Assembly: GCA_900315105.1 (NCBI GenBank)
Contig: OMXX01000106.1
Location: forward strand, 1 to 12,245
DNA: 12,245 nucleotides
Reading direction: 5' to 3'
DNA from: an uncultured Prevotellaceae bacterium
Lineage (GTDB): Bacteria; Bacteroidota; Bacteroidia; Bacteroidales; Bacteroidaceae
Positions 1 through 12,245 of the stretch are shown one piece after another. The position numbers and the translations under genes are program-made. Below the pieces are notes generated by a model. That model was not told the origin of the DNA. It made no database searches and saw only the letters and a list, made by a program, of their open reading frames with translations. Positions within the stretch are counted from its first letter, which is position 1; the number at the start of each line of letters is the position of its first letter.

Positions 1-25
1 AAAACGGTATCGTATCTTCACCCAT
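1..25 (-). CDS. Possible start of a gene running off the left edge (partial)
   Basis: An ATG at 25-23 on the minus strand opens eight complete codons (MGEDTIPF) before the window ends. No function can be assigned. The case for a real start is its position: a well-formed Bacteroidota promoter (-7 box at 57-50, TTTG at 81-78) lies just upstream and would give a leader of roughly 20 bases. The ten bases around this ATG, CTGTTATGGG, are identical to those around the proposed start of the gene at 1034, which also has the same TAATTTTGCAA promoter core. The true start could lie further left, outside the window. Confidence 0.35.
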
Positions 26-49
26 AACAGCAATAATTTGATTCGTTTG

Positions 50-81
50 CAAAATTACAAAACTATCCCCACACTTCCAAA
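50..81 (-). promoter_or_regulatory. Promoter for the gene leaving the left edge
   Basis: Read on the minus strand, TTTG at 81-78 is followed, 20 bases after its TTG, by TAATTTTG at 57-50. This matches the Bacteroidota primary-sigma consensus (TTTG at -33, TAnnTTTG at -7). Transcription would start near position 44 and run leftward. A palindrome (86-98) sits just upstream of the -33 element. Confidence 0.6.
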
Positions 82-85
82 TCTC

Positions 86-98
86 CGCAAGGCTTGCG
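86..98. repeat. Palindrome CGCAAG-G-CTTGCG
   Basis: A perfect inverted repeat with six-base arms around a single central G lies between the stop codon of the 106-393 gene and the -33 element of the left-edge promoter. The core CAAGGCTTG recurs in two other promoter regions of the window (1088-1096 on the minus strand and 11387-11395). The one-base centre makes it a better candidate protein-binding site than an RNA hairpin. It is also placed where a terminator for the 414-106 unit would be, but no U-tract follows. Confidence 0.35.
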
Positions 99-105
99 AA
101 GATAA

Positions 106-393
106 TTATGGCAATGGGGCATCTTTGGGGAAACTGCGAACTTGTTTGATGACTCTATCCAAGTCTTCTTCATCCGCATCCATTACCCATTTTACCGCTT
201 CTTTATAGAAGTCTAATTTGGCTTGCATATTTCTGATAGAATCCTCCAGCTCATTTATCTTGGCTGTCTTTTTAGCCAATTCCTTCTGATATTTACCATA
301 CCCATGTTCCTTCCGCATATCCAGATTCCAGAAAGTCCCCACAGCAATCAAGCATATTACCAATGCTATAATGACAAATATAAACTTTTTCAT
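106..393 (-). CDS. Small membrane-anchored coiled-coil protein, unknown function
   Basis: This 95-residue protein has one hydrophobic segment (about residues 4-22) directly after a short basic N-terminus (MKK), so it is either a membrane anchor or an uncleaved signal. No clear signal peptidase site or lipobox is visible, and an inner-membrane anchor with the rest outside the cytoplasm is the likely topology. Residues about 33-66 are charged with heptad-like spacing (ELAKKTAKINELEDSIRNMQ), which suggests a coiled coil. The C-terminus is short and proline-containing. It lies 20 bases downstream of the 414-1034 gene in the same direction, with no promoter visible between them, so the two are probably co-transcribed. 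The ATG at 393 is the only good start. No family is recognised. The size and architecture would suit a small accessory or stator-like partner, which is a guess. Confidence 0.75.
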   Translation of the reverse strand: MKKFIFVIIALVICLIAVGTFWNLDMRKEHGYGKYQKELAKKTAKINELEDSIRNMQAKLDFYKEAVKWVMDADEEDLDRVIKQVRSFPKDAPLP

Positions 394-413
394 ATCTTTA
401 CGTCTTATATTGT

Positions 414-1034
414 TTAATTATTCTCCGTTACGCTGCACTTTTCCAATTCTGCCAATACAAGCCTTTGAACTTTGAAAAAATTCATGAGAGTAGCAATAAG
501 ATACTTATCTATATTTGGTATTTCCTTTCGGAATAATATTTCTTTCTTACTATGTACTCCAATTTGCTCAATCTCCTTATTGGCTGTATAGACCAGTGTG
601 CAACTAGCATTTTGATTAACCAAGTTGATAATTTTATGAAGTTCCGCAATTTCCTCTATGTCGCTGTAAATTGATATTTGATACCACCAAGTATCATAGA
701 TGGTTATTAAACGACAGTCATCACTACATTGAATCTTAAAATGCTCTCCTTGATACTCAAAGCCTACCCAATTATTATTGTCGTGTTCCTCTATCTCCGG
801 ATCACACCCAATACTGCGCAACGTTGCTAGGACTAACCCTGTGGTTGTTCTATCATCCAAACATATTGAGTTATTATCATTAAACTCATTACCATCAAGT
901 TTTTCTTCCCTCGGTTTATTCATCGCTTCATGCACAAAGCGGTCATAATCTTTCTCCGATTTCCTCTTTTCTATAATATACCGAATGATGGAAAATATAA
1001 TCAGCGTCACTAAAATTGTCATAACGGTTCCCAT
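414..1034 (-). CDS. Membrane-anchored YbjN-like protein
   Basis: The 206-residue protein begins with a hydrophobic segment (about residues 4-19), then a charged linker to about 55, then a soluble alpha/beta domain (about 60-200). The pattern in the domain recalls the YbjN / type III secretion chaperone-like fold: a helix ending in IGCDPEIEE, strands WVGFEYQGEHFKIQC and RLITIYDTWWYQIS, then a helix and a strand pair (CTLVYTAN, EILFR). That family is usually cytosolic and may bind partner proteins; no catalytic residues are expected. The assignment is by pattern memory and is moderate at best. The start is uncertain. The -7 box at 1050-1043 would place the transcript start at about 1036, leaving almost no leader for the ATG at 1034; the in-frame ATG at 1022 (MTILVTL) would have about 15 bases. 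The gene leads a unit with 106-393. Confidence 0.7.
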   Translation of the reverse strand: MGTVMTILVTLIIFSIIRYIIEKRKSEKDYDRFVHEAMNKPREEKLDGNEFNDNNSICLDDRTTTGLVLATLRSIGCDPEIEEHDNNNWVGFEYQGEHFKIQCSDDCRLITIYDTWWYQISIYSDIEEIAELHKIINLVNQNASCTLVYTANKEIEQIGVHSKKEILFRKEIPNIDKYLIATLMNFFKVQRLVLAELEKCSVTENN

Positions 1035-1042
1035 AACAGTTG

Positions 1043-1050
1043 CAAAATTA
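1043..1050 (-). promoter_or_regulatory. -7 promoter element of the 1034-106 unit
   Basis: TAATTTTG on the minus strand matches TAnnTTTG exactly. The expected -33 position (1073-1071) reads TTC, not TTG, so the upstream element is weak. The element sits in the 50-base gap after the stop of the 1085-1657 gene, which separates this unit from the DUF4407 operon. A palindrome (1085-1099) lies upstream and overlaps that stop codon. Confidence 0.45.
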
Positions 1051-1084
1051 AAAGATTATTTCAGTTTTCAGAAATGTTTTTCCA

Positions 1085-1099
1085 TCACAAGCCTTGTGA
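1085..1099. repeat. Palindrome TCACAAG-C-CTTGTGA overlapping a stop codon
   Basis: A perfect inverted repeat with seven-base arms around one central base covers the last codons and stop of the 1085-1657 gene (Q-G-L-stop on the minus strand). Its core is the same CAAGGCTTG found at 88-96 and 11387-11395. It is upstream of the -7 box at 1050-1043. It could be an operator for the next unit or a weak terminator; no T-run follows. Confidence 0.35.
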
Positions 1100-1657
1100 A
1101 TTTGGTAATATACATTTCCAGATTACATTAGCTCGAACCAGATCAATCTTCTTGGCTTCTCCTCGCTTGCCTGATATGGCATAGTATCTGGCTACACTCT
1201 TGGGGAGAATGGAGGCAAAAAGCTTGCGAATCCTGGTACACTTCTCATTGATAGAGTTTTGCGTAGGATTGGTAACATCTACAATGCTCTTCTTTACCCT
1301 ATCTGTAAGTCCGTAAGGTCTTAGTAACAGGTAAAAGCTGGTCAATTCCTTACGATAATCAGGGAGGCATTTCAGAACGATACCCTCAGGATGTGAGAGG
1401 AAAAGTAGATATACCGCCTTTACCAGAGGTTCCATCTCCACCTCTACTGGCTCTTCTGCAGCCAACACGATCTTGTAATCCTCCGTCACAATCAGTTGCG
1501 GGAACAGTTCTTCTTCGTTCATCGCTGCTACAATCTCAGCCTCATCAACACCATACGCCTTTAACTTGCGTACATTCTCCTTTACTTCGTCCAAAAGAAT
1601 GGAGCAATGGAACTGCTCCAATTCTTTTGCGATCATTTCCTTAAATTCCTTTTCCAT
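1085..1657 (-). CDS. 190-residue protein with a possible winged-helix C-terminus, unknown function
   Basis: Residues about 1-50 are helical and acidic (EFKEMIAKELEQF, then VDEAEIVAAMNEEEL). Residues about 52-110 read as strand-helix segments (LIVTEDYKIVLA; VKAVYLLFLSHPEGIVLKCL). The C-terminal third has the residues SIVDVTNPTQNSINEKCTR, then a long helix (IRKLFASIL) and a basic stretch YYAISGKRGEAKKIDLVR. The layout is consistent with a winged-helix-like nucleic-acid- or protein-binding module; it feels familiar from other Bacteroidales proteins, but I cannot name a family. No signal peptide or membrane segment is present, so it is cytoplasmic. It is the last gene of the five-gene operon, 12 bases after the acidic 63-residue protein, which suggests that the two are made together and may interact. 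The ATG at 1657 is the natural start. Confidence 0.75.
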   Translation of the reverse strand: MEKEFKEMIAKELEQFHCSILLDEVKENVRKLKAYGVDEAEIVAAMNEEELFPQLIVTEDYKIVLAAEEPVEVEMEPLVKAVYLLFLSHPEGIVLKCLPDYRKELTSFYLLLRPYGLTDRVKKSIVDVTNPTQNSINEKCTRIRKLFASILPKSVARYYAISGKRGEAKKIDLVRANVIWKCILPNSQGL

Positions 1658-1669
1658 TCTTACACAAAT

Positions 1670-1861
1670 TTAGAATCCTAAAGCATCCATCATTGCATCA
1701 TACTCCAGAGGATTACTTGGCATTTCGCCATACATACCATCTGTCAGCGCGTCCCAAGAGTCTTCTTCAGTCCACTCGTAGCCTTCTTCATAGCCACCAC
1801 ACTCATAATCGTCTTCATACTCTTCATTTTCATAAGAGTCGTAATCATAATCTCTTGTCAT
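1670..1861 (-). CDS. Very acidic Tyr/Glu-rich 63-residue protein, unknown function
   Basis: Almost every other residue in the first 35 is Asp, Glu or Tyr (DYDYDSYENEEYEDDYE, then YEEGYEWTEEDSWDAL). A more ordinary tail follows with WDALTDGMYGEMPSNPLEYDAMMDALGF, which has conserved-looking aromatic and hydrophobic positions and ends in a short amphipathic helix. The acidic half is probably disordered; the tail is the likely functional or docking part. The gene is short, but it is supported by its tight placement: 26 bases after the DUF4407 gene and 12 before the next gene, all on one strand, and by the leader ending ACAATTATG that resembles other starts in this operon. Acidic miniproteins can be adaptors, inhibitors or nucleic-acid mimics; nothing here decides among them. 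Confidence 0.65.
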   Translation of the reverse strand: MTRDYDYDSYENEEYEDDYECGGYEEGYEWTEEDSWDALTDGMYGEMPSNPLEYDAMMDALGF

Positions 1862-1887
1862 AATTGTAATTCATTTATTTGTTAATA

Positions 1888-2877
1888 CTAAGCTACTTTT
1901 TTCGCCAGCAGACTATGAGAAGTCTGGTCCATCAATGTTCTCTTCAAGTTGAGTTGATTCTCCACTATCAGATCATAATCGCACTTACTATCGCCCATCT
2001 TAATGGTGAGTACAAACAACTCCAGAAAGGTCAAGAAGCAGAATAGGATAATGTAGAAAGCCAGTGAGATTGGGCTTTGTGATACCACATGCAGGGTGGC
2101 TTCAAGTTCCTCGATGAATCCAGGAGCACGATGATTCACTTCTGCAGTAGTAGTCTCCAAGATATTCTTTTTATCCTGTCGCAGCTGTTCCAACTGATTG
2201 GCATAAATCTGGATCTGCTCGTTATTAGCCTTCATCTGTTCTGCCAGAGGATTTGCCATAACGACTGTAGAAACAGATTGTGTTCTAACCTTCTTGGGCT
2301 TACCGTTCTCATCCACACCCACTACCTGCTCTTGCGTAGAAACATTGGTACCTTTGATGGTGGGTCTCTTCTGCAGTTCTTCACCGATGAGGACAGTTGC
2401 CTTACTCAGAGAATCCATGTCATGGGTTATCCGCTGGATGTCACTCTCATAGATTGACAAGCGTTTGGTCACAGTCTCCTTGATAACATCCTCTCTGTGC
2501 TCCTGAATAGCCTGATGAATATCGTTTCGGAAGATGATCTGGTCAAAGATACAAGCCCCTAAAAAAGCCATACACAAAGCCAACATCACACGCATTGCTG
2601 TCATCAGTCGTGCCTTTCCCACAGTCAGGATAATCACACGTTCTACACTGAGAACAATAAACATAAAGACCAAGGAAACACAGATCTTCAGCAGACAAGA
2701 GTGGAGATTGATGTATCTGTCAGCGAAACAGTAACCAATGGTTCCCCAAAGAATCAGCATAATACTAAGGGCTGATATCAGTTTCCTGAACTGGCGGTGA
2801 CTAGCCTCTCCACACTCACTTAAGATATTCTTGTCCCATCCAATAAGGAGGCAACCTATATTCGTTAAAGTTTTCAT
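1888..2877 (-). CDS. DUF4407 family integral membrane protein
   Basis: The 329-residue protein has three hydrophobic segments near the N-terminus (about 36-52, 62-78 and 95-113) and one near the C-terminus (about 270-292). Between them lies a large soluble insert (about 115-265) rich in coiled-coil helix (VTKRLSIYESDIQRITHDMD; EQMKANNEQIQIYANQLEQL) interrupted by a glycine/lysine-containing segment (about 172-205). This architecture, with ER in the second span and the F-D-x-I-I-F signature after the third, fits the DUF4407 family common in Bacteroidota, whose role is unknown. With four spans the long insert would face one side of the membrane as a helical stalk. It is the third gene of the operon, 12 bases after 2890-3453. 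The other products (a single-span protein and a coiled-coil protein) would make sense as parts of a membrane complex, which is inference. Confidence 0.85.
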   Translation of the reverse strand: MKTLTNIGCLLIGWDKNILSECGEASHRQFRKLISALSIMLILWGTIGYCFADRYINLHSCLLKICVSLVFMFIVLSVERVIILTVGKARLMTAMRVMLALCMAFLGACIFDQIIFRNDIHQAIQEHREDVIKETVTKRLSIYESDIQRITHDMDSLSKATVLIGEELQKRPTIKGTNVSTQEQVVGVDENGKPKKVRTQSVSTVVMANPLAEQMKANNEQIQIYANQLEQLRQDKKNILETTTAEVNHRAPGFIEELEATLHVVSQSPISLAFYIILFCFLTFLELFVLTIKMGDSKCDYDLIVENQLNLKRTLMDQTSHSLLAKKVA

Positions 2878-2889
2878 AATTACCTGTTT

Positions 2890-3453
2890 TTACTTGTTTT
2901 CAATGAATTCAATTGTAGAGGCTGTGATACCCTTAAGGAATCCTCTGCGATAAGACTCTATCATAGTCATCATCTTAGGATCTTCTGCTGCAAACAGATC
3001 CTGCATCTCCTTGATCTCAGAAAGATGCTCTTCATAAGTCTGTTTAAGAGAGTCCAGCCTTGCAGCTGCAGTGAGAGCATATGCCTTTCGGGCATTATCA
3101 ATCTTAATCTCAACTTCCCGGATGTCATTCTTGTAACGTAGGACGATCCGCTTAAAGAGCATATCCAGATCATTACAGATTATTTTCTCCTTAATGTCAC
3201 GATAGGCTACATCCTGATTTACCAGAGCATCCTGGAAGCCTTCCTCCTCGAAGTTCTTATGAATGAAGTTGAAGATAACATCTATGGGCATTCCAGTCCC
3301 CCAGATGATGGTAATAATCTTCTTCTCTTCATCCTTCTTCTCCTCAACGGGAGCCTCTTTTTCATCACTAACAACCTGAAGATTGTTGTCTGTCTCAGGT
3401 GTAACATCGCTGTTCACAACCTGCTTTGAATTGAATAAATTAAAAAGTGCCAT
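2890..3453 (-). CDS. Cytoplasmic helical/coiled-coil protein, unknown function
   Basis: The 187-residue protein starts MALFNLFNSKQ, then has a highly charged, probably disordered linker (about 18-45, EAPVEEKKDEEKK). A domain of about 46-187 follows: a strand IITIIWGTG, a helical region, then long charged helices (LFKRIVLRYKNDIREVEIKI; SLKQTYEEHLSEIKEMQDLF) compatible with a coiled coil that could pair with the helical insert of the DUF4407 protein encoded next. No signal peptide, membrane span or catalytic motif is visible. It is the second gene of the operon, 38 bases after 3492-4034 and 12 before the DUF4407 gene. Its 5' leader carries the 16-base motif TAGTAACAATTTAAAA ten bases before the ATG, shared with the first gene of the operon and with the distant repeat-protein gene. 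No family is recognised. Confidence 0.75.
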   Translation of the reverse strand: MALFNLFNSKQVVNSDVTPETDNNLQVVSDEKEAPVEEKKDEEKKIITIIWGTGMPIDVIFNFIHKNFEEEGFQDALVNQDVAYRDIKEKIICNDLDMLFKRIVLRYKNDIREVEIKIDNARKAYALTAAARLDSLKQTYEEHLSEIKEMQDLFAAEDPKMMTMIESYRRGFLKGITASTIEFIENK

Positions 3454-3463
3454 AATTGTATCG

Positions 3464-3479
3464 TTTTAAATTGTTACTA
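3464..3479 (-). promoter_or_regulatory. Leader motif TAGTAACAATTTAAAA, copy 2
   Basis: An exact 16-base copy ends 10 bases before the ATG at 3453. The same sequence precedes the starts at 4034 (10-base gap) and 11558 (9-base gap). The fixed distance to the start codon suggests a translation-enhancing or RNA-binding leader element rather than a DNA operator. Confidence 0.5.
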
Positions 3480-3491
3480 TAATCTGTTATC

Positions 3492-4034
3492 TTAAGCAGC
3501 CTTCAACTCTCGATTATTGACTACGATATCGAAGAATTCACCTGACTTACGTGAAGTGTATCTGAAGACCAAATTTCTATGTGAGCGAGCCACTCGGGTG
3601 GTCTGAACACTATATTTATTAATCTGAGAAAGAATACTCTGCTTCAACTTATCTTGATCAATGGTCTCATAACCCTTACTCAACTCATAAAACATTGTAT
3701 AGGAATCGCTATTGACATCAGAGCCTACCCATTTTGTGATTTCATCTACCTTCTTGGGGCAGAAGTAAGACTGATATCTTGCCAATATCTGAAGATATTC
3801 TTCATCAGAGACATTTTCATCGACAGTTTCTGCCAGAGCAATATTTAGTTCTTCCTCTGTGAAATTGTCCATCAAATCATTAACATCTACAGGATCTGCT
3901 TTGAAATACAACGAATAGGCTAAGAAGATCAGGAATAAACCGATTCCAAATACGAAGGATATAGCCCCTGCGATACAGATGATAAACCAATGATTACCGA
4001 TCACTCTCTTTGAATGTAAAAATACTCGTTTCAT
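3492..4034 (-). CDS. Single-span membrane protein, first gene of the DUF4407 operon
   Basis: The 180-residue protein has a basic N-terminus (MKRVFLHSKRVIGNH), one long hydrophobic segment (about 16-45, including IAGAISFVFGIGLFLIFLAY) and a soluble C-terminal part. Basic residues before the span predict an inside N-terminus and an outside C-terminus. The soluble part is acidic (about 47-85, NDLMDNFTEEELNIALAET), then becomes basic and strand-rich at the end (TTRVARSHRNLVFRYTSRKS). The spanning segment is long enough for a helical hairpin, so two short spans are also possible. No signal peptidase site is seen. As the first gene after a 154-base divergent intergenic region facing the caspase gene, it probably defines the operon's promoter. 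Function is unknown; membership of a membrane complex with the downstream DUF4407 protein is plausible. Confidence 0.75.
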   Translation of the reverse strand: MKRVFLHSKRVIGNHWFIICIAGAISFVFGIGLFLIFLAYSLYFKADPVDVNDLMDNFTEEELNIALAETVDENVSDEEYLQILARYQSYFCPKKVDEITKWVGSDVNSDSYTMFYELSKGYETIDQDKLKQSILSQINKYSVQTTRVARSHRNLVFRYTSRKSGEFFDIVVNNRELKAA

Positions 4035-4044
4035 AATTTTAAAA

Positions 4045-4060
4045 TTTTAAATTGTTACTA
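4045..4060 (-). promoter_or_regulatory. Leader motif TAGTAACAATTTAAAA, copy 1
   Basis: An exact 16-base copy ends 10 bases before the ATG at 4034 of the first gene of the DUF4407 operon. It lies downstream of the proposed promoter, so it would be in the mRNA leader. Confidence 0.5.
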
Positions 4061-4075
4061 TTTTGTTTCTTTGTA

Positions 4076-4083
4076 CAAGGATA
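4076..4083 (-). promoter_or_regulatory. Possible -7 element of the DUF4407 operon
   Basis: TATCCTTG on the minus strand differs from TAnnTTTG at one base and would start a transcript near 4069, giving a leader of about 35 bases that contains the 16-base leader motif. At the -33 distance the sequence is GTT, not TTG. It is the best candidate in the divergent region but remains weak. Confidence 0.35.
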
Positions 4084-4161
4084 CCACAGACCTCCATAGA
4101 AGTAACCGCCGTTTAACATTGTTTAAGGATTTAAGCAGATACCCATATCAATTTTTTTTTG

Positions 4162-4169
4162 TATATTTG
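4162..4169 (+). promoter_or_regulatory. -7 promoter element of the caspase-sigma operon
   Basis: TATATTTG matches TAnnTTTG exactly and lies 19 bases before the ATG at 4189, giving a leader of roughly 15 bases. This placement shows that the TTG at 4159, which would extend the frame by ten residues, is upstream of the transcript start and is not the start codon. No TTG is present 19-21 bases upstream (about 4138-4142), so a different sigma factor or an activator may recognise this promoter. The 13 bases TATATTTGCCCAA (4162-4174) recur exactly at the TPR-CHAT promoter. Confidence 0.6.
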
Positions 4170-4188
4170 CCCAAAATATTTCTTTAAG

Positions 4189-5058
4189 ATGCGAAAATTA
4201 CTACTGATAATAGGCCTAATTTCCTTGGTCTCAATCGCTGGAAATGCCCAGCGGAAGAGGGCTTTCATGGTAGGCATCTCTCAGTATGATACTGCTCTGA
4301 CAGGTTATCAGTGGAACAACATCAATGGAGTGGAAGATATCAATCTTTTGAGCCCCATCTTGAAAAAACAAGGTTTTTATTTAACCACGTTATTAGATGA
4401 GCAAGCTACTTATCAGAATATAACCAACCAACTTTCGACCTTCACGAATCAGACAAAGAAAGGAGATATCGTCTATCTTCATTTCTCTGCTCATGGGCAG
4501 CCTGTAGAAGATCTTAACGGTGACGAAGAGGATGGATGGGATGAAGCGATTGTCCCCATTGATGCCTATAAGAATTACAAGAAAGGCGTTTATGAAGGTA
4601 AAAAGCATCTGCTCGATGACCAATTGAACACGTATATCAAGAAGTTAAGGACTAAGATAGGAACCACAGGTTTCCTCTATGTGGTTATTGATGCCTGTCA
4701 TGCAGGCACCTCTTCAAAAGCTAACGATGAGACGATAAGAGGCACCAAGGTTGGCTTTACATATCATAATAAGGTATTCAAACCTTCAACCCAGAAGAAA
4801 TCTCATTATAAAGTAGAAGCAACTCCCAAGATGTCGCATGTAATGTACCTAGAAGCCTGTCGCCCTGATCAGGTAAATATGGAAATAAAGGTAGATGGGA
4901 AACGATATGGCCCACTCTCTTACAACATTGCCCAGGCTTTACAAACCAAGCCATTATCTGCTAATGGGAATGATTTTTTGAATCAAGTGAAGGCGTCCAT
5001 TATGAAAGGTGGCAAATGGCCCAACAATCAGAATTTGGTAACTGAAACGAGTTTCTAA
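4189..5058 (+). CDS. Exported caspase-like cysteine protease (peptidase C14, metacaspase type)
   Basis: The 289-residue protein has a signal peptide (residues about 1-20, cleavage predicted at GNA-Q), so the protease acts in the periplasm or beyond. The caspase fold follows at once: strand AFMVGISQYD, then YLHFSAHGQ with catalytic His102, an acidic loop NGDEEDGWDEAIVPIDA (110-126) typical of metacaspases, and YVVIDACHAGT with catalytic Cys170. Asp168, two residues before the Cys, corresponds to the metacaspase residue that binds P1 Arg or Lys, so cleavage after basic residues is predicted. The end (about 240-289) resembles the usual C-terminal strand-helix of C14 enzymes. There is no extra domain, so it is a minimal protease. 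The start is set by the promoter at 4162-4169. It leads the operon, one base before the sigma factor gene. Confidence 0.9.
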   Translation: MRKLLLIIGLISLVSIAGNAQRKRAFMVGISQYDTALTGYQWNNINGVEDINLLSPILKKQGFYLTTLLDEQATYQNITNQLSTFTNQTKKGDIVYLHFSAHGQPVEDLNGDEEDGWDEAIVPIDAYKNYKKGVYEGKKHLLDDQLNTYIKKLRTKIGTTGFLYVVIDACHAGTSSKANDETIRGTKVGFTYHNKVFKPSTQKKSHYKVEATPKMSHVMYLEACRPDQVNMEIKVDGKRYGPLSYNIAQALQTKPLSANGNDFLNQVKASIMKGGKWPNNQNLVTETSF

Positions 5059-5059
5059 C

Positions 5060-5683
5060 ATGGCAAAAGAGATCTCCATATTTGACATAAAAAGCTATTT
5101 TCAAGGAAAAGCTAGTTCCAAGAAGAGGCAAGATTTTGAGAATGAGAAAGGAAAGGCCTTCTCGTTTTTAAGAAAAAGATATGATTCCCTTTCTGACGAG
5201 GATATCGAAGATATCTATCAAGAAGCCCAGTCTGCATTATATCTTAATATAGAAAATGGAAAGCTTCAGGAACTCACATGCCCCTTTAGTTCCTATTTCT
5301 TGCAAATATGTAACAATCAAGCATTAAAAATAGTCAATAGGAGAAAAGGGATAAAGACAAAACAAATAAATGAAGACCGGACTATCTTAAACGATTATGA
5401 GGTTCTTGAAGAAAAAGTGGATGAGTTATACAGTTTTTGTATGACAACAGAAGAAGAAGACAGAAAATTACGTTTGCAATTGCTTGTCAGAAAGATTATC
5501 GCCTCGATGACAGATACCTGTAAAAACATCCTTCATAGTTATTATTGGGATGATTTCTCGACATCAACGATTGCAGATATGTTTAACTTCTCCAATGCAG
5601 ACTCTGTGAAAACACAGAAGTATAAGTGCATGAACAAATTCAGAGATAAGTATAACGAATTAAAAAAGAAGATCTATGGATAA
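5060..5683 (+). CDS. Sigma-70 family (ECF-like) RNA polymerase sigma factor
   Basis: The 207-residue protein has the two-domain layout of group 4 sigma factors. Region 2 covers about 30-97: FSFLRKRYDSLSDEDIEDIYQEA, then FSSYFLQICNNQALKIVNRRK, the -10-binding helix pair. Region 4 covers about 138-200, with a helix-turn-helix at about 166-198 (FSTSTIADMFNFSNADSVKT, then QKYKCMNKFR) for the -35 element. The linker is acidic. Region 4 has several Asn/Ser/Thr substitutions compared with a typical ECF factor, so it is a divergent member. The gene begins one base after the caspase stop and its last eight bases overlap the anti-sigma gene, which indicates translational coupling. The gene is visibly more AT-rich than its two neighbours (about 32% G+C in one hand-counted line against 48-50%). 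Likely targets are the operon itself or the nearby units; this is inference. Confidence 0.85.
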   Translation: MAKEISIFDIKSYFQGKASSKKRQDFENEKGKAFSFLRKRYDSLSDEDIEDIYQEAQSALYLNIENGKLQELTCPFSSYFLQICNNQALKIVNRRKGIKTKQINEDRTILNDYEVLEEKVDELYSFCMTTEEEDRKLRLQLLVRKIIASMTDTCKNILHSYYWDDFSTSTIADMFNFSNADSVKTQKYKCMNKFRDKYNELKKKIYG

Positions 5684-6338
5684 GAATAACGATATATTGC
5701 AGCAAGCCATTGATGATCGCATCGATGCGTTTATCAGAGGCATGATGACAAAGGATGAAGAAGCTGCCTTTAAGCAGGAAATCCAGGCTGACCCTGATCT
5801 CCGAGCTCATGTATTGGCTACAGTATCACTCATCAAGGGTATTCGCACGCAAAATGCGGAAAAGGAAAGAACGCTTATCCAGCCACAACAAAATAACAAG
5901 GTTCGCACACTTCTATGGTGGGCCACATCTATTGCAGCTGTCTTTGCCATCTTCTTTGGATATCAGAAAGACAAACGCTTCAACGAACTCTCTGATATGG
6001 TATCCCCATACTATGCAGAGTACAGTATGAGTGATTATGCACGTGGAGATGTGGATTCCGCCACTGTTGCCCACCTCTATACCTTATTTAATAACATACA
6101 GAAGCAGCGTCATGTCAGCAGTATCATTGCAGAACTGGAGCCAATCTATACTTCTTTAGGACATGACTTCACCTACTCTGCCTATGCCAATGACATAGCT
6201 CTTAATCTGGCACTTGCTTACATCAAGGATGATCAGACAGATAAGGCCATCCCCATCTTAGAGAAACTGGAGAAAGATAATCCTGATACTCCAATCGCAA
6301 CTAAAGCAGGAGAACTCTTATTAATACTACGGGAATAA
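5676..6338 (+). CDS. Anti-sigma-like membrane protein with extracytoplasmic TPR-like tail
   Basis: The 220-residue protein begins with DRIDAFIRGMMTKDEEAAFK and then ADPDLRAHV (residues 14-46), the helical pattern of cytoplasmic anti-sigma N-termini (D-x-x-I-x-x-F-x-x-G, then E-E-A-A-F, then D-P-x-L-R). No Zn-binding His/Cys cluster is present, which is common in Bacteroidota. One membrane span follows (about 78-95, LLWWATSIAAVFAIFFGY). The outer part (96-220) contains a helical repeat best seen at about 170-205 (ALNLALAYIKDDQTDKAIPI), a TPR. Basic residues at 98-101 (KDKR) lie just outside the membrane, a plausible cleavage zone for the Arg/Lys-type caspase encoded two genes upstream. It overlaps the sigma gene by eight bases. 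It could instead be a plain TPR scaffold, but position and N-terminus favour sigma control. Confidence 0.75.
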   Translation: MDKNNDILQQAIDDRIDAFIRGMMTKDEEAAFKQEIQADPDLRAHVLATVSLIKGIRTQNAEKERTLIQPQQNNKVRTLLWWATSIAAVFAIFFGYQKDKRFNELSDMVSPYYAEYSMSDYARGDVDSATVAHLYTLFNNIQKQRHVSSIIAELEPIYTSLGHDFTYSAYANDIALNLALAYIKDDQTDKAIPILEKLEKDNPDTPIATKAGELLLILRE

Positions 6339-6366
6339 TTCGGAGATTAAATCATTGGAAAAGACT

Positions 6367-7764
6367 TCATCTTTGTTGTTCCGCAATATGCTGAAGAAGT
6401 TTGGGTAGTTGTTTATGGTTATTACCCCCTCTATACCATATAACATTTATGCCTAAATCTGCTAGCATATCTTCTCTTATTTGGAAATCTTCTTCACGTT
6501 TTTCGGCAGTTTTACACTTACTCTTTCGTTCAAGAAAGGCGTAATGTCGGACCTCTTTCCCACGATATCCTTTGGCGATTTCTAACAAACGCCTAAGATT
6601 GGGATCTTTCATGGAAAGTCCTATGAAGAAACAAGTACAACGTGTTAATGCATGGAGTTGCTCAACATTAGACCAGTCAAAAACTTTTGAATACATTTCA
6701 TGGTAATCCCTTTCACTTAATACTATTCTTTCTTCTTGCTGTTCTTCATTATCACGTGAAATGATACCATGAACATGATATACAGGAAATGAATTGTATT
6801 CATCTCGATTGTATCCATAAACAGGAAAACAATTTTCCCCTATCCTTACCAAATTCTCTTCAATTAACGTATCATAGTTATATGTTAAGATACTTCTAAC
6901 ATTCTTTTGGTTTTTGACCAAGTTACATATAGAAGATATTAAATCAGATTTTCCAACATTTTCATTTTTATAAAAAATATTCCATATACGTTTACGTAAT
7001 TCAACATTATCTACACCAAGTGATTTTTGAATATACCTTGCTATTACTAAATTGGAATTATCCATCTCATTTGAAATCGCTAAAAAATCATTATGATTGA
7101 TAATACGCCCCATTGTAACTAATTCTTTTAATAGCTTGTCCCAACTTGGCATATGTGCAGAAACACTTACTCCCGCCCCCAGAAACAAGGCGCTGTCATA
7201 TCGTTTTAAATCGTTGATTGCATTTGCCAATCTCTCTTGTCTCGTTTTTGTCCATCCTTTTGACTTACGCTTTTCACCTGATGCTATTTGCTTTAAAACA
7301 TATCCTTTTCCTGTAGATATAGCTTCTTTTATTCTATCAACAAAAACACTTGCATTAATAAATTCTACACGACCCATTAGACCGCTATTATCAACAATTG
7401 GATTTTCAGGATTTATAGATAACAAAATGATATTGTCAACCTCTTTGCTATCTATAAGAGTTTTATATATTTTCACTTGTTTTATCTCAGTATCAAATAA
7501 CAGATTTTTTCTTATTTCGATAATTGTTTTTCCGATAATACCTAGAGACTTACATCCCTTATCTAAATAAATATCAGGTATAAAACGAAATCCACCATCC
7601 CCAACATTTATCTGTTTTTGAAGATCACATACCTCTTCAGGATGCATAATAAGTAATAGTGCATCAAATAACCATCTGCCCAAACTTATTTCATTTTCTA
7701 GTATTTCAACATTGTCTATGTTAACAATGTTTGGATCAAGAAAAGCTTTTCTAATGTATGCCAT
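6367..7764 (-). CDS. SIR2-family putative NADase with N-terminal nuclease-like domain
   Basis: The 465-residue protein has a C-terminal SIR2_2-type domain (about 185-445): the NAD-binding loop FLGAGVS (194-200), SILTYNYDT with Asn296 and Asp298, the catalytic-type histidine H332 in YHVHG, IVLSERDY, and FFIGLSMKDPNLRRLL. In bacterial defence proteins such as ThsA this domain hydrolyses NAD+. Residues about 25-120 look like a PD-(D/E)xK fold: FIPDIYLD (D64), TIIEIRK (E83; the usual Lys is Arg85), then Q96-x-x-x-Y and a strand NIILLSI. The altered ExK suggests either a variant or a binding-only nuclease domain. No signal peptide or span is present, so it is cytoplasmic. It starts six bases after the TPR-CHAT stop and is probably translationally coupled to it. 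The gene is AT-rich like its partner. Activation of NAD loss is inferred from family knowledge only. Confidence 0.85.
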   Translation of the reverse strand: MAYIRKAFLDPNIVNIDNVEILENEISLGRWLFDALLLIMHPEEVCDLQKQINVGDGGFRFIPDIYLDKGCKSLGIIGKTIIEIRKNLLFDTEIKQVKIYKTLIDSKEVDNIILLSINPENPIVDNSGLMGRVEFINASVFVDRIKEAISTGKGYVLKQIASGEKRKSKGWTKTRQERLANAINDLKRYDSALFLGAGVSVSAHMPSWDKLLKELVTMGRIINHNDFLAISNEMDNSNLVIARYIQKSLGVDNVELRKRIWNIFYKNENVGKSDLISSICNLVKNQKNVRSILTYNYDTLIEENLVRIGENCFPVYGYNRDEYNSFPVYHVHGIISRDNEEQQEERIVLSERDYHEMYSKVFDWSNVEQLHALTRCTCFFIGLSMKDPNLRRLLEIAKGYRGKEVRHYAFLERKSKCKTAEKREEDFQIREDMLADLGINVIWYRGGNNHKQLPKLLQHIAEQQR

Positions 7765-7770
7765 AACAAA

Positions 7771-10700
7771 TCAATTTAATCCATCCAACAAAATAAACGA
7801 AGCCCAATATTCAGGCTTATCGTATTTTCCATTATCAACTTGGCGTAGATACTTCTGAGCCTCTTTTAGAGATTGATGCTTTGATTTCCCGTCCATGAGA
7901 TTCTTATAAAACTCTACCATTAACAATTTGGTAGCCTCATCATCGACTTTATCCAAACTCATAAGAATTGTATTTACTCCTGCTTTTTTGAAACCACGTT
8001 GAAGCCCAAATATACCATTACTATTTATATCACCCAAACCTGTTTCGCATGCAGAAAGTACTACCATATCAACTTTTCTCAAATCTAACTGGGAAATCTC
8101 AAATGCTGTTAAAATGTCATCATCAATTTGGGGGGCAATAGTTTTGCGATAAATCAGTTTGTTACCACCAGACATCACTAAAAAAGAATGTGTCAATACA
8201 ATATCTTCCTGAACAGGATCTTTTTCATTCGTTATTAACTCAAGAAAATTAAAATTATTCTTGATTTTCTTTTGATACACAATATCTGGGCCAATATACA
8301 TGCCATGAGTTGAAAGATGTATCATATTTACGTCCTTACCAGATAGTTTTTTGAAACTTTCTTCTGTCCCCTTTTCATCTGTATAAAGCGTTGATAAAAT
8401 ATTCTTGTTTTTCAAGAGGCTATCAATTTCCTGTACTTCCTCAAGAGCACTGAATAAAGGATCAAAGCCACCACGAGCATTAATACTACGCAAAAGGCTA
8501 TTTCCCTTTATACTATCATTGTCTGTTGACTCTATTACCTGAGTTTCATAATTTAGTCCACCATACAGAATCGCATTAGCTTCTTGTGCCTTTTTGTTTT
8601 GGAATACAATTTCCTTTGTAGAAGAAAGTCTAAATAGATTATAGTGATTCATCATTTCACCAATCCCATCAACATTGCAATATTCTATCGGTAATCGGTT
8701 TATTATTCCATCCGGAGAGAAATAAATATTTTCTACATTATTATATTGACTTAATATCGGTTTCCAAATTAAAGGGCCAATAATTTCCATAATACTTTTT
8801 GTACTATTCTTCTTTAATTCCTCAAACATTGATTCATTATATAAAGATACCATATTGGGAAACTTACATGTCTTGTCAATAATCATAGCATGATATGTAA
8901 AATACAAAGAATCTTCTCTGGTAGTAAAAATTTCTATTGCAATGTCTTGATCTGATAGTTTCTTCTGAATATCCTTCCATCCAATATTCATCCTATGTAG
9001 AAGCTGGTCTCCATCTGAAACATAAGCATCCAGCAATAAACTTTTGGAGAACAAGATATAATTATAAAGTTTTGAATATAATTCCTCATTCCTATCACTC
9101 TTTTCAACAATCTCCCGATACAGCAGATATAGCCATTCATATCGATTCCATAGCCTTTGTTTTTGTTCTGAAGTCATTCCTATGATCTCACGTTTAATGT
9201 TGACCTGAACATTATCAAGAATCTCTGAAAGCAATTTTTCAGCTTTTGTATATTCATAGTTATCCATATAAAGTGACGAAAGAAAAGACGCAGCGCTTAT
9301 TTTTATGCCTTCATTGCGCATATCATTAGCCATAGATAAAGATAACAAAAAACTCTCTTTAGCCCGTTGTATATCACTATTATTCATATAGCACTCACCG
9401 AGAATTAAATAAGATGGAACCAGAAATTCGGCTCTAGTTCCTACCCTTTTAAGCAAATCTATTGATTGCTTTACGCTATTAATTGCCTCAGGGAACTGCT
9501 TATTTTGAAGGTAATATTGAGATAATGTTGTGAGGTTACAAGCATATGATTCTTCATCTATCTCCTTCAATATATCACCATTCTCTTTCGTAGTAATTAT
9601 TGCATCATACAACTGACCTTTTTTCATGAATACATTTGCCAAGGTTGAATAATAACCAGATTTAACAAAACCAATATATTGTCTGACATATTTCAAAGAA
9701 TAAGGATTATCAATATCAGTATTTTCCATAAGTTTTACATCTTTTGCGATATAATCCTTTGCATCATCATGACCTTTCAAAATATCAATAGCCTTTTTAA
9801 GATACAATTCTGCATTATCTAGGTCTTCAGAATAATGATAAAAATTCCCTATTTGTCCGTATGCATTTGCTAATGCAATCCAATTCTCTTCTGATTCAAA
9901 TATACCTGCAGCATCCGTTTGAAGTTGAATAGATTTCTCATAATCGAAGATCATACTATATGCATACGCAAGATCATTAAGCATCTCTGCATATTTAGCT
10001 GATTTGATATTTAACGAATCAAATATCTGCCTAGATGCTTCACCAGAAACGATTGCTTCATACTTTAACCCAAGTTCTTTTTGGTATCTACATTTCTGGC
10101 CCAAGATTTCTGCATATTCTTCTGTTTTCCCAGTTGTATTATTGAGTATCTCAAGAGATTTATTGCAATACTCAATTGCCTTCACATCATTATTTAAAAC
10201 AGAATAATGACTAGCTATAGTTTTGTAGATCAGAACCATTCCCAATGAAGAAGATGGAACATAATCTGGGAGGTTTTCAAGTTCTTCCTCTACAGCCTTA
10301 ATACGTTTAGCATCATCTTGATGATATCCAGAAATAAGCAAATCAACTAATCCATCTAAATAGATTTTAGCATCCCCTATCTTTCGTCTAACGTCGACAT
10401 TTTTCTTTTGATATAGTAAACCATTGTCATAATCCCCAATCATATAATAGTCATTCGCAATGAAATCCAAAGTCAAAGCATATTGCTCATCAACGATATT
10501 TAGCTCCTCATATAATGCAATAGCTTCTTTAAAAGTATTGATAGACTGTTCATACATTTTTGCATGACTATATAATTGGGCTTGTGTTCTCAATTGTAAT
10601 GCATAATTCCAATCAGATTTACCATATGTTTCCTCATATAGTTTTGTAGTTTTTTCAATCAGCGTCGTTGATTCTCTAAAATACTCGTATTTGTCATACA

Positions 10701-11295
10701 TTAAACTTAGCTTAAAAAGAGATAGTAAATAAGCTTCTGATTTAAATCCATGAATATATTGAGTAGCATTTAATTCGTCTTCCTTATATTGAATCGCTTT
10801 CAAAGTATCCCCAGCAGAATCATAAAATGAAGCCATATTGGAGAATCGTTTTAATTCTGATTCTTGATATTGCTTTTCAAATTGATTATTTAGATCTATT
10901 CCATAAACATTAAAGGCTCTCTCATCTTTATTTTCAATAAGATCAAGTTTCCCTTTTGGAATGAAAGAAGGAAAATATAAAGTAAACTCACACCTTTCTT
11001 CAAATAAGAACTTTTTTTGTTCTGGGGAAAAAGGAAAGCCCTCGCTTTTCTGTATAGGATATTTAATGTTAGTTTTAGTATCCAATAGATATGTATCTTC
11101 AGAGATATTAGCCCATGAATTAGCTTCTGCAGCATAAGTACATTGAAGAATAATAGCATCCTTGTTTATCGTTACTTTATCAATATGGAATGCAGATATA
11201 TCAGTTCTGTCAAAAACAGGATTCTCAATTGTTTGTGCAACAGTTGTCAAACTGGTGCAAATTAATATAATTAGTAGATATAATACTTTTCTCAT
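7771..11295 (-). CDS. Exported TPR-CHAT protein (clan CD protease)
   Basis: The 1174-residue protein starts with a signal peptide (about 1-20, ending TTVA-Q). Residues about 21-140 form a strand-rich domain of a kind often seen at the N-terminus of exported Bacteroidales proteins (NPVFDRTDISAFHIDKV, FTLYFPSFIPKGKLDLIE, FNVYGIDL). About 150-690 is a long series of TPR helices, around ten or more repeats, many near 40 residues apart (for example FANDYYMIG-like and AYAYSMIFDYEKSIQL segments). The CHAT domain runs from about 770 to the end, with His997 in MIHLSTHG and Cys1083 in VVLSACETG, the intact dyad. CHAT proteins are proteases related to separase and caspases; TPRs usually bind the trigger or substrate. 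The gene leads an operon with the SIR2 gene. It is clearly AT-rich (about 30% G+C in one hand-counted line). Export distinguishes it from Csx29 of type III-E CRISPR systems. Confidence 0.9.
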   Translation of the reverse strand: MRKVLYLLIILICTSLTTVAQTIENPVFDRTDISAFHIDKVTINKDAIILQCTYAAEANSWANISEDTYLLDTKTNIKYPIQKSEGFPFSPEQKKFLFEERCEFTLYFPSFIPKGKLDLIENKDERAFNVYGIDLNNQFEKQYQESELKRFSNMASFYDSAGDTLKAIQYKEDELNATQYIHGFKSEAYLLSLFKLSLMYDKYEYFRESTTLIEKTTKLYEETYGKSDWNYALQLRTQAQLYSHAKMYEQSINTFKEAIALYEELNIVDEQYALTLDFIANDYYMIGDYDNGLLYQKKNVDVRRKIGDAKIYLDGLVDLLISGYHQDDAKRIKAVEEELENLPDYVPSSSLGMVLIYKTIASHYSVLNNDVKAIEYCNKSLEILNNTTGKTEEYAEILGQKCRYQKELGLKYEAIVSGEASRQIFDSLNIKSAKYAEMLNDLAYAYSMIFDYEKSIQLQTDAAGIFESEENWIALANAYGQIGNFYHYSEDLDNAELYLKKAIDILKGHDDAKDYIAKDVKLMENTDIDNPYSLKYVRQYIGFVKSGYYSTLANVFMKKGQLYDAIITTKENGDILKEIDEESYACNLTTLSQYYLQNKQFPEAINSVKQSIDLLKRVGTRAEFLVPSYLILGECYMNNSDIQRAKESFLLSLSMANDMRNEGIKISAASFLSSLYMDNYEYTKAEKLLSEILDNVQVNIKREIIGMTSEQKQRLWNRYEWLYLLYREIVEKSDRNEELYSKLYNYILFSKSLLLDAYVSDGDQLLHRMNIGWKDIQKKLSDQDIAIEIFTTREDSLYFTYHAMIIDKTCKFPNMVSLYNESMFEELKKNSTKSIMEIIGPLIWKPILSQYNNVENIYFSPDGIINRLPIEYCNVDGIGEMMNHYNLFRLSSTKEIVFQNKKAQEANAILYGGLNYETQVIESTDNDSIKGNSLLRSINARGGFDPLFSALEEVQEIDSLLKNKNILSTLYTDEKGTEESFKKLSGKDVNMIHLSTHGMYIGPDIVYQKKIKNNFNFLELITNEKDPVQEDIVLTHSFLVMSGGNKLIYRKTIAPQIDDDILTAFEISQLDLRKVDMVVLSACETGLGDINSNGIFGLQRGFKKAGVNTILMSLDKVDDEATKLLMVEFYKNLMDGKSKHQSLKEAQKYLRQVDNGKYDKPEYWASFILLDGLN

Positions 11296-11329
11296 TCTTA
11301 TTAGGATTTTATAGATTGTTTTTATTGGG

Positions 11330-11360
11330 CAAATATAAGAAGAAAAACTGAAGTTTGCAA
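11330..11360 (-). promoter_or_regulatory. Promoter of the TPR-CHAT/SIR2 operon
   Basis: On the minus strand, TTG at 11360-11358, a 20-base spacer and TATATTTG at 11337-11330 match the Bacteroidota consensus. The transcript would start near 11325, leaving a leader of about 30 bases before the ATG at 11295. The -7 box and the five bases after it, TATATTTGCCCAA (11337-11325), are identical to the caspase operon promoter. Confidence 0.7.
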
Positions 11361-11382
11361 GTTATCCAGGGAAAAAGTGCAT

Positions 11383-11395
11383 TTCGCAAGGCTTG
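11383..11395. repeat. Third CAAGGCTTG site, between two divergent promoters
   Basis: TTCGCAAGGCTTG contains the same eleven bases CGCAAGGCTTG found at 86-96. It lies between the TPR-CHAT promoter (11330-11360) and the repeat-protein promoter (11410-11440), a suitable place for a regulator acting on both. The right arm is imperfect here (CTTGTT instead of CTTGCG). Confidence 0.3.
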
Positions 11396-11409
11396 TTATT
11401 TGAAAATGC

Positions 11410-11440
11410 TTGCATAATAAGGGCTAATTCCTTAGCTTTG
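11410..11440 (+). promoter_or_regulatory. Promoter of the repeat-protein gene
   Basis: TTG at 11410-11412, a 20-base spacer and TAGCTTTG at 11433-11440 form a good Bacteroidota promoter. It predicts a leader of about 110 bases before the ATG at 11558, long for this window; the 16-base leader motif is at its end. Confidence 0.6.
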
Positions 11441-11532
11441 CAGTAAAAATTCAGGTATTAACAAAAAAAATCATTTTTGGTGGTTACCTTTTGATATTTT
11501 ATGGTATAAAGAGGCAAAGAACAACAAATTAG

Positions 11533-11548
11533 TAGTAACAATTTAAAA
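11533..11548 (+). promoter_or_regulatory. Leader motif TAGTAACAATTTAAAA, copy 3
   Basis: An exact 16-base copy ends nine bases before the ATG at 11558. The two other copies lie over 7 kb away on the opposite strand, before unrelated coding sequences, so the element is shared rather than part of a gene duplication. Confidence 0.5.
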
Positions 11549-11557
11549 ATTAGAATT

Positions 11558-12052
11558 ATGAAAAAGTTAATGATGACACTGATGGCTGTCGTATTCGCCA
11601 TCACAGCAAATGCTCAGTACAACACCAACTATTACAACCAGTATGGTAACAGTATCGGTTCTTCAACAACCCGTTCCAATTACGGTGGTGGCTACACCAC
11701 GGACTACTACAACCAGTACGGTGCAAGCACAGGTAGCGCAACGACACGCTCTAACTATGGTGGTGGAGCAACTACTAACTACTACAACCAATATGGTAGT
11801 AGTACAGGTTCTGCTTCAACACATTCCAATTATGGCGGTGGCTATACCACAAACTATTACGACAGTTACGGTGCAAGCACAGGTAGCTCAACAACACGCT
11901 CCAACTATGGTGGTGGTACAACTACCAACTACTACGACCAATATGGCCGCAGCATAGGTTCTTCAACAACCAGAGAAAATTATGGTGGCGGAACGTCAAC
12001 AACCTATTATGACGCATATGGAAATAACATCGGATCCAGCAGTGGTTGGTGA
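11558..12052 (+). CDS. Exported protein of 25-residue Tyr/Gly/Ser/Thr-rich tandem repeats
   Basis: The 164-residue precursor has a signal peptide (residues 1-20, ending ANA-Q at 19-21). All the rest is five complete 25-residue repeats (about 21-145) and a partial sixth (146-164, ending SSSGW). The repeat has the pattern T-T-N-Y-Y-N/D-Q-Y-G, then S-x-G-S-S-T-T-R-S-N-Y-G-G-G. The Tyr-Tyr pair, the Y-G and the N-Y-G-G-G block are invariant or nearly so. Charged residues are scarce. Such composition suits a flexible or amyloid/adhesive surface or periplasmic protein; no enzyme domain is present. The repeats correspond to 75-bp DNA units, so copy number may vary by slippage or recombination. It is a single-gene unit with its own promoter and terminator. 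The first ATG is right for the signal peptide. Specific function is unknown. Confidence 0.85.
   Translation: MKKLMMTLMAVVFAITANAQYNTNYYNQYGNSIGSSTTRSNYGGGYTTDYYNQYGASTGSATTRSNYGGGATTNYYNQYGSSTGSASTHSNYGGGYTTNYYDSYGASTGSSTTRSNYGGGTTTNYYDQYGRSIGSSTTRENYGGGTSTTYYDAYGNNIGSSSGW
11618..12052 (+). repeat. 75-bp coding tandem repeat, about 5.8 copies
   Basis: The DNA of the repeat-protein gene is built from 75-bp units that encode 25 residues each. Units differ mainly at synonymous or conservative positions: TAC/TAT, ACC/ACA/ACT and Asn/Asp changes. The units are diverged enough not to be very recent copies, but long identical stretches remain, for example around the GGTGCAAGCACAGGTAGC block at about 11720 and 11870. 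Confidence 0.8.
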
Positions 12053-12066
12053 TATAAGGTCGAGCG

Positions 12067-12132
12067 CGACAAGCTCAGGAACCGTCCATTCGACAAGCTC
12101 AGGAACCGTCCATTCGACAAGCTCAGGAACCG
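12067..12132 (+). repeat. 24-bp direct tandem repeat, 2.75 copies
   Basis: Two complete units (12067-12090 and 12091-12114) and an 18-base partial third (12115-12132) are exactly repeated without spacers. Each begins CGACAAGCTCAGGAACCG and complete units end TCCATT. A degenerate trace, CAGGGACCGT, follows at 12136-12145. From memory, TTCGACAAGCTCAG-type sequences are dispersed intergenic repeats in many Bacteroidota genomes. The array lies in the 3' untranslated region of the repeat-protein gene, before the terminator. Confidence 0.85.
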
Positions 12133-12160
12133 AATCAGGGACCGTGGAATATTAAAAAAG

Positions 12161-12191
12161 ATCCAAACTGCATGGTGGTTTGGATTTTTTT
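12161..12191 (+). terminator. Rho-independent terminator of the repeat-protein gene
   Basis: ATCCAAAC (12161-12168) and GTTTGGAT (12178-12185) form an eight-base-pair stem with a nine-base loop, followed by a run of seven T (12185-12191). A-rich sequence before the left arm means that it could also work on the other strand. Confidence 0.85.
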
Positions 12192-12194
12192 ATG

Positions 12195-12202
12195 TACCTT
12201 TG
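12195..12202 (+). promoter_or_regulatory. -7 element of the next gene to the right
   Basis: TACCTTTG is an exact TAnnTTTG match and is followed by CCC as at the caspase and CHAT promoters. No TTG lies at the proper -33 distance. The likely start codon is the ATG at 12242-12244, about 40 bases downstream, so only the first codon of that gene is inside the window. Confidence 0.5.
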
Positions 12203-12245
12203 CCCTCGAAATCAATAATCATACTTAAACCACTTAAAACAATGA

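Follow-up and report, generated by a model that had tools for sequence, protein, structure and literature searches.

The stretch of DNA analysed here, hereafter the window, comprises 12,245 nucleotides of an uncultured Prevotellaceae bacterium (assembly GCA_900315105.1, contig OMXX01000106.1, positions 1 to 12,245, forward strand) and carries three closely packed genes for an exported metacaspase-type peptidase, an extracytoplasmic function (ECF) sigma factor and a membrane anti-sigma-like protein. From sequence and predicted structure we consider it reasonably likely that the metacaspase acts in the periplasm as a site-1 protease devoted to an ECF sigma switch that is anchored in the membrane. 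The linkage of the genes, the predicted compartments of their products, an invariant anti-sigma arginine tied to the presence of the caspase, conserved S1 residues and a promoter motif confined to the locus were computed directly. The protease role, already put forward in a preliminary description of this DNA, is supported by the caspase-tied arginine, the S1 residues, the finding of PrsW in the caspase's slot in relatives and a promoter that does not face the caspase gene, while the cleavage itself we infer. The parts of the module in the window are as follows.

4189..5058, + strand: caspase gene, exported metacaspase-type peptidase (C14), 289 residues from the ATG at 4189 (open reading frame, Pfam)
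4492-4494, + strand: catalytic H102 of the caspase
4696-4698, + strand: catalytic C170 of the caspase
4738-4743, + strand: caspase R184-G185, 14 residues past the catalytic Cys, invariant in module caspases
5060..5683, + strand: ECF-type sigma-70 factor, 207 residues (TIGR02937; relatives at 62 genome loci)
5676..6338, + strand: putative membrane anti-sigma with helical cytoplasmic N-terminus (3-66), span (76-94), outer loop and TPR-like tail (hydropathy, AlphaFold2 (AF2), Foldseek, NF052375 matches of relatives)
5901..5957, + strand: transmembrane span of the anti-sigma, residues 76-94 (hydropathy; AF2 helix 76-112)
6042..6047, + strand: anti-sigma R123-G124, proposed site-1 cleavage site, in loop 121-127 (Arg in 30/30 cluster representatives; AF2 loop)

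Linkage of the three genes across Bacteroidota

The 1-base gap between the caspase and sigma genes (5059) and the 8-base overlap of the sigma and anti-sigma genes (5676-5683) are both as first described, with a further open TTG at 4159 upstream of the caspase ATG. The trio is found repeatedly across Bacteroidota and the 8-base overlap is present at 36 loci, which places the arrangement beyond chance. A sigma-anchored scan, in which an alignment of sigma factors was run against public genome contigs, gave 62 loci, 42 of them with a short caspase. Conversely, a caspase-anchored survey of 201 genomes of one family (E <= 1e-30) gave 33 matches in 31 genomes (L010 and the 32 stretches L063-L094), with a sigma gene within the stretch for 31 and directly downstream for 28 (after 199 bases in L089); the order in L084 is sigma, anti-sigma, caspase. 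Conservation of gene order across Bacteroidota, suggested in the preliminary description as a check on its proposal, thus holds from the sigma and from the caspase side. A phylum-wide caspase survey gave 32 matches in 29 of 395 genomes, and 26 of these matches were examined (G005, which is L010, and G505, G244, G417, G563 and G361 were left out). Most of the 26 fall in a separate clade that lacks both an export signal and a linked sigma gene; 18 caspases of this clade, none with a sigma gene in the stretch, are used as the control below.

The sigma factor scores just above the TIGR02937 cut-off (43.3 bits against 42.9), so the earlier assignment of sigma regions 2 and 4 passes narrowly, Pfam region 2 alone lying under its cut-off (15.4 bits against 24). 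No relative of the sigma factor was found in viral contigs, and there is therefore no sign of a viral element. Compared with the homologues P0149, P0194 and P0210, the C-terminal half with region 4 is near-identical and the N-terminal halves are clearly different, as if region 2 had been swapped. The module also occurs in bins labelled Bacilli and Lachnospiraceae (L028 and L033), contigs that are probably misbinned because their sigma falls within the Bacteroidota part of the tree.

An exported caspase with predicted basic specificity

The caspase domain is recognised by PF00656 (E 1.2e-19), both His102 and Cys170 are present and the N-terminus is signal-peptide-like, in agreement with the preliminary description. 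The best profile match is the metacaspase 4f6o (4.6e-19), and the structural model (predicted local distance difference test score, pLDDT, 84) has 3bij (GSU0716) as its best Foldseek match, followed by metacaspases and MALT1. S100, H102, D168, C170, R184 and G185 are identical in all 76 module caspases, and D50 is likewise conserved in 76/76. Metacaspases accept Arg or Lys at P1, and Asp95, Ser156 and Asp211 are the proposed S1 residues of TbMCA2 (PMC4357240). D50, S100 and D168 are their equivalents in residue identity, not in specificity, the pairing of D50 with Asp95 being drawn via a profile alignment to yeast metacaspase. These S1 residues of metacaspase type would predict a cut after Arg or Lys.

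A hydrophobic N-terminal stretch is present in 75 of the 76 module caspases versus 0 of the 18 unlinked ones, and most of the partner CHAT proteins checked (below) also have one. The count of 76 caspases and that of 72 anti-sigmas used in the next section hold four duplicate loci (L063/L020, L064/L022, L065/L018 and L066/L036), of which the 30-cluster arginine count is independent; the two totals differ as no anti-sigma was detected in L068, L079 and L088 and that of L075 (R-G) was dropped by a distance rule. A plasmid search yielded only caspases of less than 60% identity.

The predicted anti-sigma and its invariant arginine

The preliminary description of the third protein, anti-sigma-like with one span and a TPR-like tail, stands with its identity coming from relatives. 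No Pfam or NCBIfam family matches the window protein above cut-off, and the NF052375 'anti-sigma factor' model, which matches 21 of 29 relatives at E <= 0.5 (best 3.5e-6), finds it below cut-off only; from these relatives the protein is predicted to be an anti-sigma. Its AF2 model (pLDDT 79.8) shows three N-terminal helices, a long helix across the span, the loop 121-127 and a helical tail. The TPR-like character of this tail is suggested by weak Pfam matches and by a first Foldseek match to the TPR protein YbgF (E 0.06). In a Protein Data Bank profile search with the anti-sigma nearly all matches, at marginal values, were TPR or other repeat proteins. Foldseek returned nothing at E <= 0.001 for the model, and so yields no anti-sigma fold identification. 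A basic flank precedes the span, suggesting an N-in topology. The caspase and R123 would both be periplasmic.

The R123 column is Arg in 30/30 representatives of caspase-linked anti-sigmas (60% identity clusters, n=30), with no gap; the next residue is Gly in 21, Ser in 5, Ala in 3 and Asp in 1, and the only further column without variation is an alanine within the span. The arginine is retained in L077, L078, L080, L081 and L086, in which the outer part is only 50-55 residues long and the TPR is absent. An Arg followed by Gly, Ala or Ser (R-[GAS]) lies 6-65 residues past the span in 70 of 72 anti-sigmas linked to short caspases, compared with 30.6 expected from shuffles, the misses being L033 and L034 (both R-D), and in 2/2 linked to long caspases; anti-sigmas without a caspase have it in 4 of 17, with 6.8 expected. 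Counted by clusters this is 31/32 linked versus 3/14 without caspase (Fisher p 3e-7, kinship ignored). The test scores the first match, which in L006, L015, L078 and L091 is another Arg than the aligned one.

Downstream of the module in five loci are open reading frames of 61-73 residues that resemble the anti-sigma N-terminal domain only (L012:8316-8531, L013:9092-9313, L018:4792-4977, L019:9289-9492 and L022:4540-4734), possibly a soluble anti-sigma or decoy.

Relatives without a caspase

A sigma-anchored search of the 201 family genomes gave 40 strong matches (E <= 6.3e-26, background >= 3.7e-17), nine of them without a caspase match (L153-L161) and eight of these nine with a detected anti-sigma. 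R-[GAS] is absent from the first 65 residues past the span in four (L154, L157, L159 and L160), L153 has K-G at the place of R123, and L155 has R-Y near it, with an R-A 38 residues past the span, deeper in the tail. These eight were judged by reading; the unaligned rule would make L155, L156 and L161 positive. In genomes G134, G083, G122 and G211 one pair is linked to a caspase and another is not: the arginine is present in 4/4 linked copies (L070, L078, L089 and L087), and the unlinked second copy lacks R-[GAS] in three (L154, L157 and L160), L155 being unclear. These losses argue against an unlinked Arg-specific protease as the cause of the arginine. On the sigma tree the caspase label changes nine times, at least seven of which are forced by well-supported branches, so that the caspase has been switched between presence and absence several times; the arginine labels of this tree were set by hand for L033 and L034 (R-D, present) and for L153-L161 (L155 absent).

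In three of the caspase-free relatives the gene directly upstream of sigma, the caspase's usual slot, encodes PrsW (L153, L156 and L157; E 9e-37, 3.7e-36 and 1.5e-35), itself the site-1 protease of RsiW (PMC10202637). No further PrsW turned up when a profile built on these three was run against the window, L001-L122 and L153-L161 at E <= 1e-5. Pedobacter-type anti-sigmas carry an outer trypsin-like domain, confirmed by Pfam in L045 (PF13365, 3.5e-25) and assigned by sequence resemblance in L047, L051 and L055-L057. Such recurrence of proteases at this position fits a site-1 role of the caspase. Beside the caspase-free sigma gene of L158 there is a membrane protein with an HELTH motif (L158:7641-8450; Peptidase_M50B below cut-off).

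Promoter motif, predicted regulon and neighbouring genes

From upstream regions we derived the motif GGTTACC-N14-16-GTATAAA, which in the form GGTTACY-N14-16-GTATAAA has 31 copies in 18 module genomes (~52 Mb), against 5 for a reversed control pattern; coordinates and the genes downstream place every one of the 31 close to the module; 12 of the 18 genomes were chosen because the locus showed the motif, which biases its presence there and not its absence elsewhere. The 20 family genomes without a caspase match hold 2 copies of the motif and 10 of the reversed pattern. By downstream gene, 14 of the 31 copies belong to the divergent side, 13 to a repeat protein like that at 11558-12052, 3 to a protein of 412-419 residues and 1 to another small protein. 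A GTATTAA form lies 31 bases (script's count) before the Pedobacter-type sigma genes of L045, L047, L051 and L055-L057, tying the motif to this sigma lineage, and the motif is presumably recognised by this sigma factor. The corresponding elements in the window, together with a TAnnTTTG element that we take to be the housekeeping-type promoter consensus, are listed here.

11482..11510, + strand: predicted ECF promoter GGTTACC-N15-GTATAAA, perfect copy, 47 bases before gene 11558
11558..12052, + strand: predicted target, exported Y/S/T/G-rich repeat protein
4079..4107, - strand: degenerate divergent promoter copy GGTTACT-N16-GTATCC, facing 3492-4034 (read by hand; better match in relatives)
1888..4034, - strand: predicted divergent target operon, 3492-4034 membrane protein, 2890-3453, and 1888-2877 DUF4407
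4162..4169, + strand: housekeeping-type TAnnTTTG (TATATTTG) before the caspase gene
11330..11337, - strand: housekeeping-type TATATTTG before the CHAT gene (read by hand)
7771..11295, - strand: exported TPR-CHAT protein, second clan-CD-type domain, recurrent module partner (PF12770, 4e-46)

Judged from promoter type, the detector genes (caspase, sigma, anti-sigma and CHAT) would be constitutive and the response genes (DUF4407 operon and repeat protein) induced. The TPR-CHAT partner and this predicted local regulon both lie outside the scope of the preliminary description. The repeat protein has a recurring Arg before Ser (TTR-S), which in relatives stands before Asp (HR-D) in many copies; it could serve the exported proteases as a substrate with several cut sites.

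Between the anti-sigma and CHAT genes is a SIR2-domain protein like Thoeris ThsA (6367-7764, - strand; PADLOC 6e-23), whose gene looks like a variable insert since among L001-L062 it has relatives only in L002 and L019.

Proposed mechanism and alternatives

In the resting state the anti-sigma would keep the sigma factor bound at the inner membrane. Once activated, the exported caspase, possibly in concert with its likewise exported TPR-CHAT partner, would cleave the anti-sigma behind R123, within the loop that adjoins the membrane on its outer side, whereupon a site-2 protease (RseP/M50) would complete the release of sigma. The freed sigma factor would then induce a small regulon at its own locus, consisting of the DUF4407 operon on the divergent side and, beyond CHAT, the gene for the repeat protein. 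An M50 site-2 protease is present in all ten genomes of module-bearing relatives that were searched.

Several observations weigh against this assignment, including some taken up with the alternatives below. L068 and L079 have a caspase without a sigma gene in the stretch, and the two genes are 3 kb apart in L087, with CHAT between them, and 6 kb apart in L092. Neither caspase nor CHAT was found in L044, L055 and L056, in which R-[GAS] is present, and L155 counts as positive when the rule is applied unaligned. The anti-sigmas of L089-L094 carry R-A or R-S, the linkers of their caspases still R-G, and the anti-sigma dipeptide and the caspase linker therefore do not covary. The position of R184 is Arg in 18/18 unlinked caspases too (next residue T in 11, R in 6 and Q in 1); R184-G185 as a module-specific autoprocessing site is weakened by this sharing, and R184 carries little weight because it is equally kept in caspases without the module.

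An unlikely alternative is that the exported TPR-CHAT protein makes the site-1 cut, or that caspase and CHAT form a cascade in which either activates the other. CHAT accompanies most modules (23 of the 32 stretches L063-L094), in L035 its gene immediately precedes that of the caspase in the same orientation, and the passages of PMC10028731 on Craspase offer the precedent of a TPR-CHAT protease that cuts a sigma-factor inhibitor. Two loci with CHAT and no caspase in the stretch keep the arginine, L161 with R-G at the place and L049 with R-S after the span, and for this reason CHAT may own or share the cut. However, nine of the 32 stretches have a caspase without CHAT (L079, L084 and L088-L094), the arginine is present in 7/7 of those with a listed anti-sigma (L084 and L089-L094), and it is the caspase and not CHAT that adjoins the sigma gene in most loci.

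That the caspase is instead a target or effector of the sigma factor, the alternative allowed in the preliminary description, is disfavoured and we regard it as improbable. The two genes do share an operon, and in 20 of the 33 regions upstream of caspase genes (the window is not among them) GGTAAC precedes GTAnnTTTG by exactly 19 bases, which could be an inward-facing second use of the near-palindromic -35; given this fixed spacing some feedback of sigma on the caspase is possible. Yet none of the 31 strict motif copies in the 18 genomes precedes a caspase, the housekeeping-type TAnnTTTG does so in 32 of the 33 upstream regions examined, and the anti-sigma arginine follows the caspase through most of its losses.

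Marginally less probable again is that R123 is kept for structure or ligand binding and is cut by no protease. A conserved Arg can serve as a helix cap or as the contact for an acidic partner, and L156, with PrsW and no caspase in the stretch, retains R-G at the place, but R123 sits in a predicted loop, survives loss of the TPR tail and is missing from most caspase-free relatives. Least credible, and in our view very improbable, is cleavage at R123 by some other Arg-specific periplasmic protease with the caspase linked for a different purpose. The cut of an unlinked protease would be invisible in gene order, and L156 would fit; against it, the caspase-free second copy has no R-[GAS] past the span in 3/4 two-pair genomes.

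Relation to known systems

With the caspase as site-1 protease, the module resembles the known cases of regulated intramembrane proteolysis, DegS-RseA, PrsW-RsiW, SipS/SipT-RsiV and SipP-RsiP (PMC10202637). As in those cases, there is an ECF sigma factor, a predicted one-span anti-sigma and a proposed outer juxtamembrane cut; an M50 site-2 protease is found in the genomes of relatives, and the protease gene is next door, being PrsW itself in three relatives. It differs in the nature of the proposed site-1 protease, a cysteine peptidase of metacaspase type, and the word 'caspase' is absent from the main text of that review.

The Craspase of type III-E CRISPR, in which the TPR-CHAT protein Csx29 cuts Csx30, an inhibitor of CASP-sigma (PMC10028731), likewise has its TPR-CHAT protease encoded alongside a sigma factor and the inhibitor of that factor. 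Unlike the module, Craspase is RNA-guided via Cas7-11, and no Cas protein, Cas7-11 included, is found among the ten window proteins scanned. By contrast, the enzymes of the module carry signals for export, its anti-sigma is membrane-spanning, and the cut is predicted to be made by a C14 caspase that is a protein of its own.

EACC2-caspase conflict systems are described as having caspase, ECF sigma and DUF1822 TPR genes, with caspase activation and a sigma output proposed (PMC8195603), and thus share with the module a neighbourhood of caspase, ECF sigma and TPR protein. In the architecture given there the caspase follows EACC2 and the C-terminus is variable, whereas in the module the caspase is small and exported and its neighbour is a membrane anti-sigma that bears the conserved Arg. 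The window caspase, 289 residues with a signal-peptide-like start and a caspase domain, does not have this architecture; the Pfam scan of the ten window proteins shows no DUF1822, and the EACC1 model is far under cut-off (no EACC2 model was searched).

Operons of metacaspase and sigma-70 genes are reported in Myxococcus, Anaeromyxobacter, Haliangium, Sorangium, Ralstonia and Fibrobacter (PMC3501461), similar to the module in joining a prokaryotic metacaspase to a sigma factor and different in taxa; the relevant passages mention neither an anti-sigma nor a cleavage site, a promoter or a mechanism. Nor do the pertinent passages of PMC3501461, PMC8195603 or PMC10028731 describe an exported caspase that acts upon an anti-sigma in the membrane, and among the matches listed in the open-licence literature searched there is no report of a caspase as an anti-sigma site-1 protease.

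We give about an even chance to the broader proposal that caspase-type peptidases of Bacteroidota serve as periplasmic site-1 proteases, with an exported metacaspase and exported TPR-CHAT partner forming an envelope-crossing cascade that leads to ECF sigma release and a locus-confined regulon, and with a site-1 enzyme that is exchangeable within one sigma lineage (caspase, PrsW, or an anti-sigma-fused trypsin domain).

Bacterial metacaspases are, to our knowledge, widespread, with natural substrates known for few. For one metacaspase family a particular substrate, the cleavage site in it and a transcriptional read-out are now predicted, and all of them can be put to the test in a single strain. 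If the prediction holds, it would extend the site-1 proteases by a cysteine peptidase of caspase fold, would provide a cell-envelope parallel to Craspase, and would suggest how CHAT/caspase-sigma circuits could arise.

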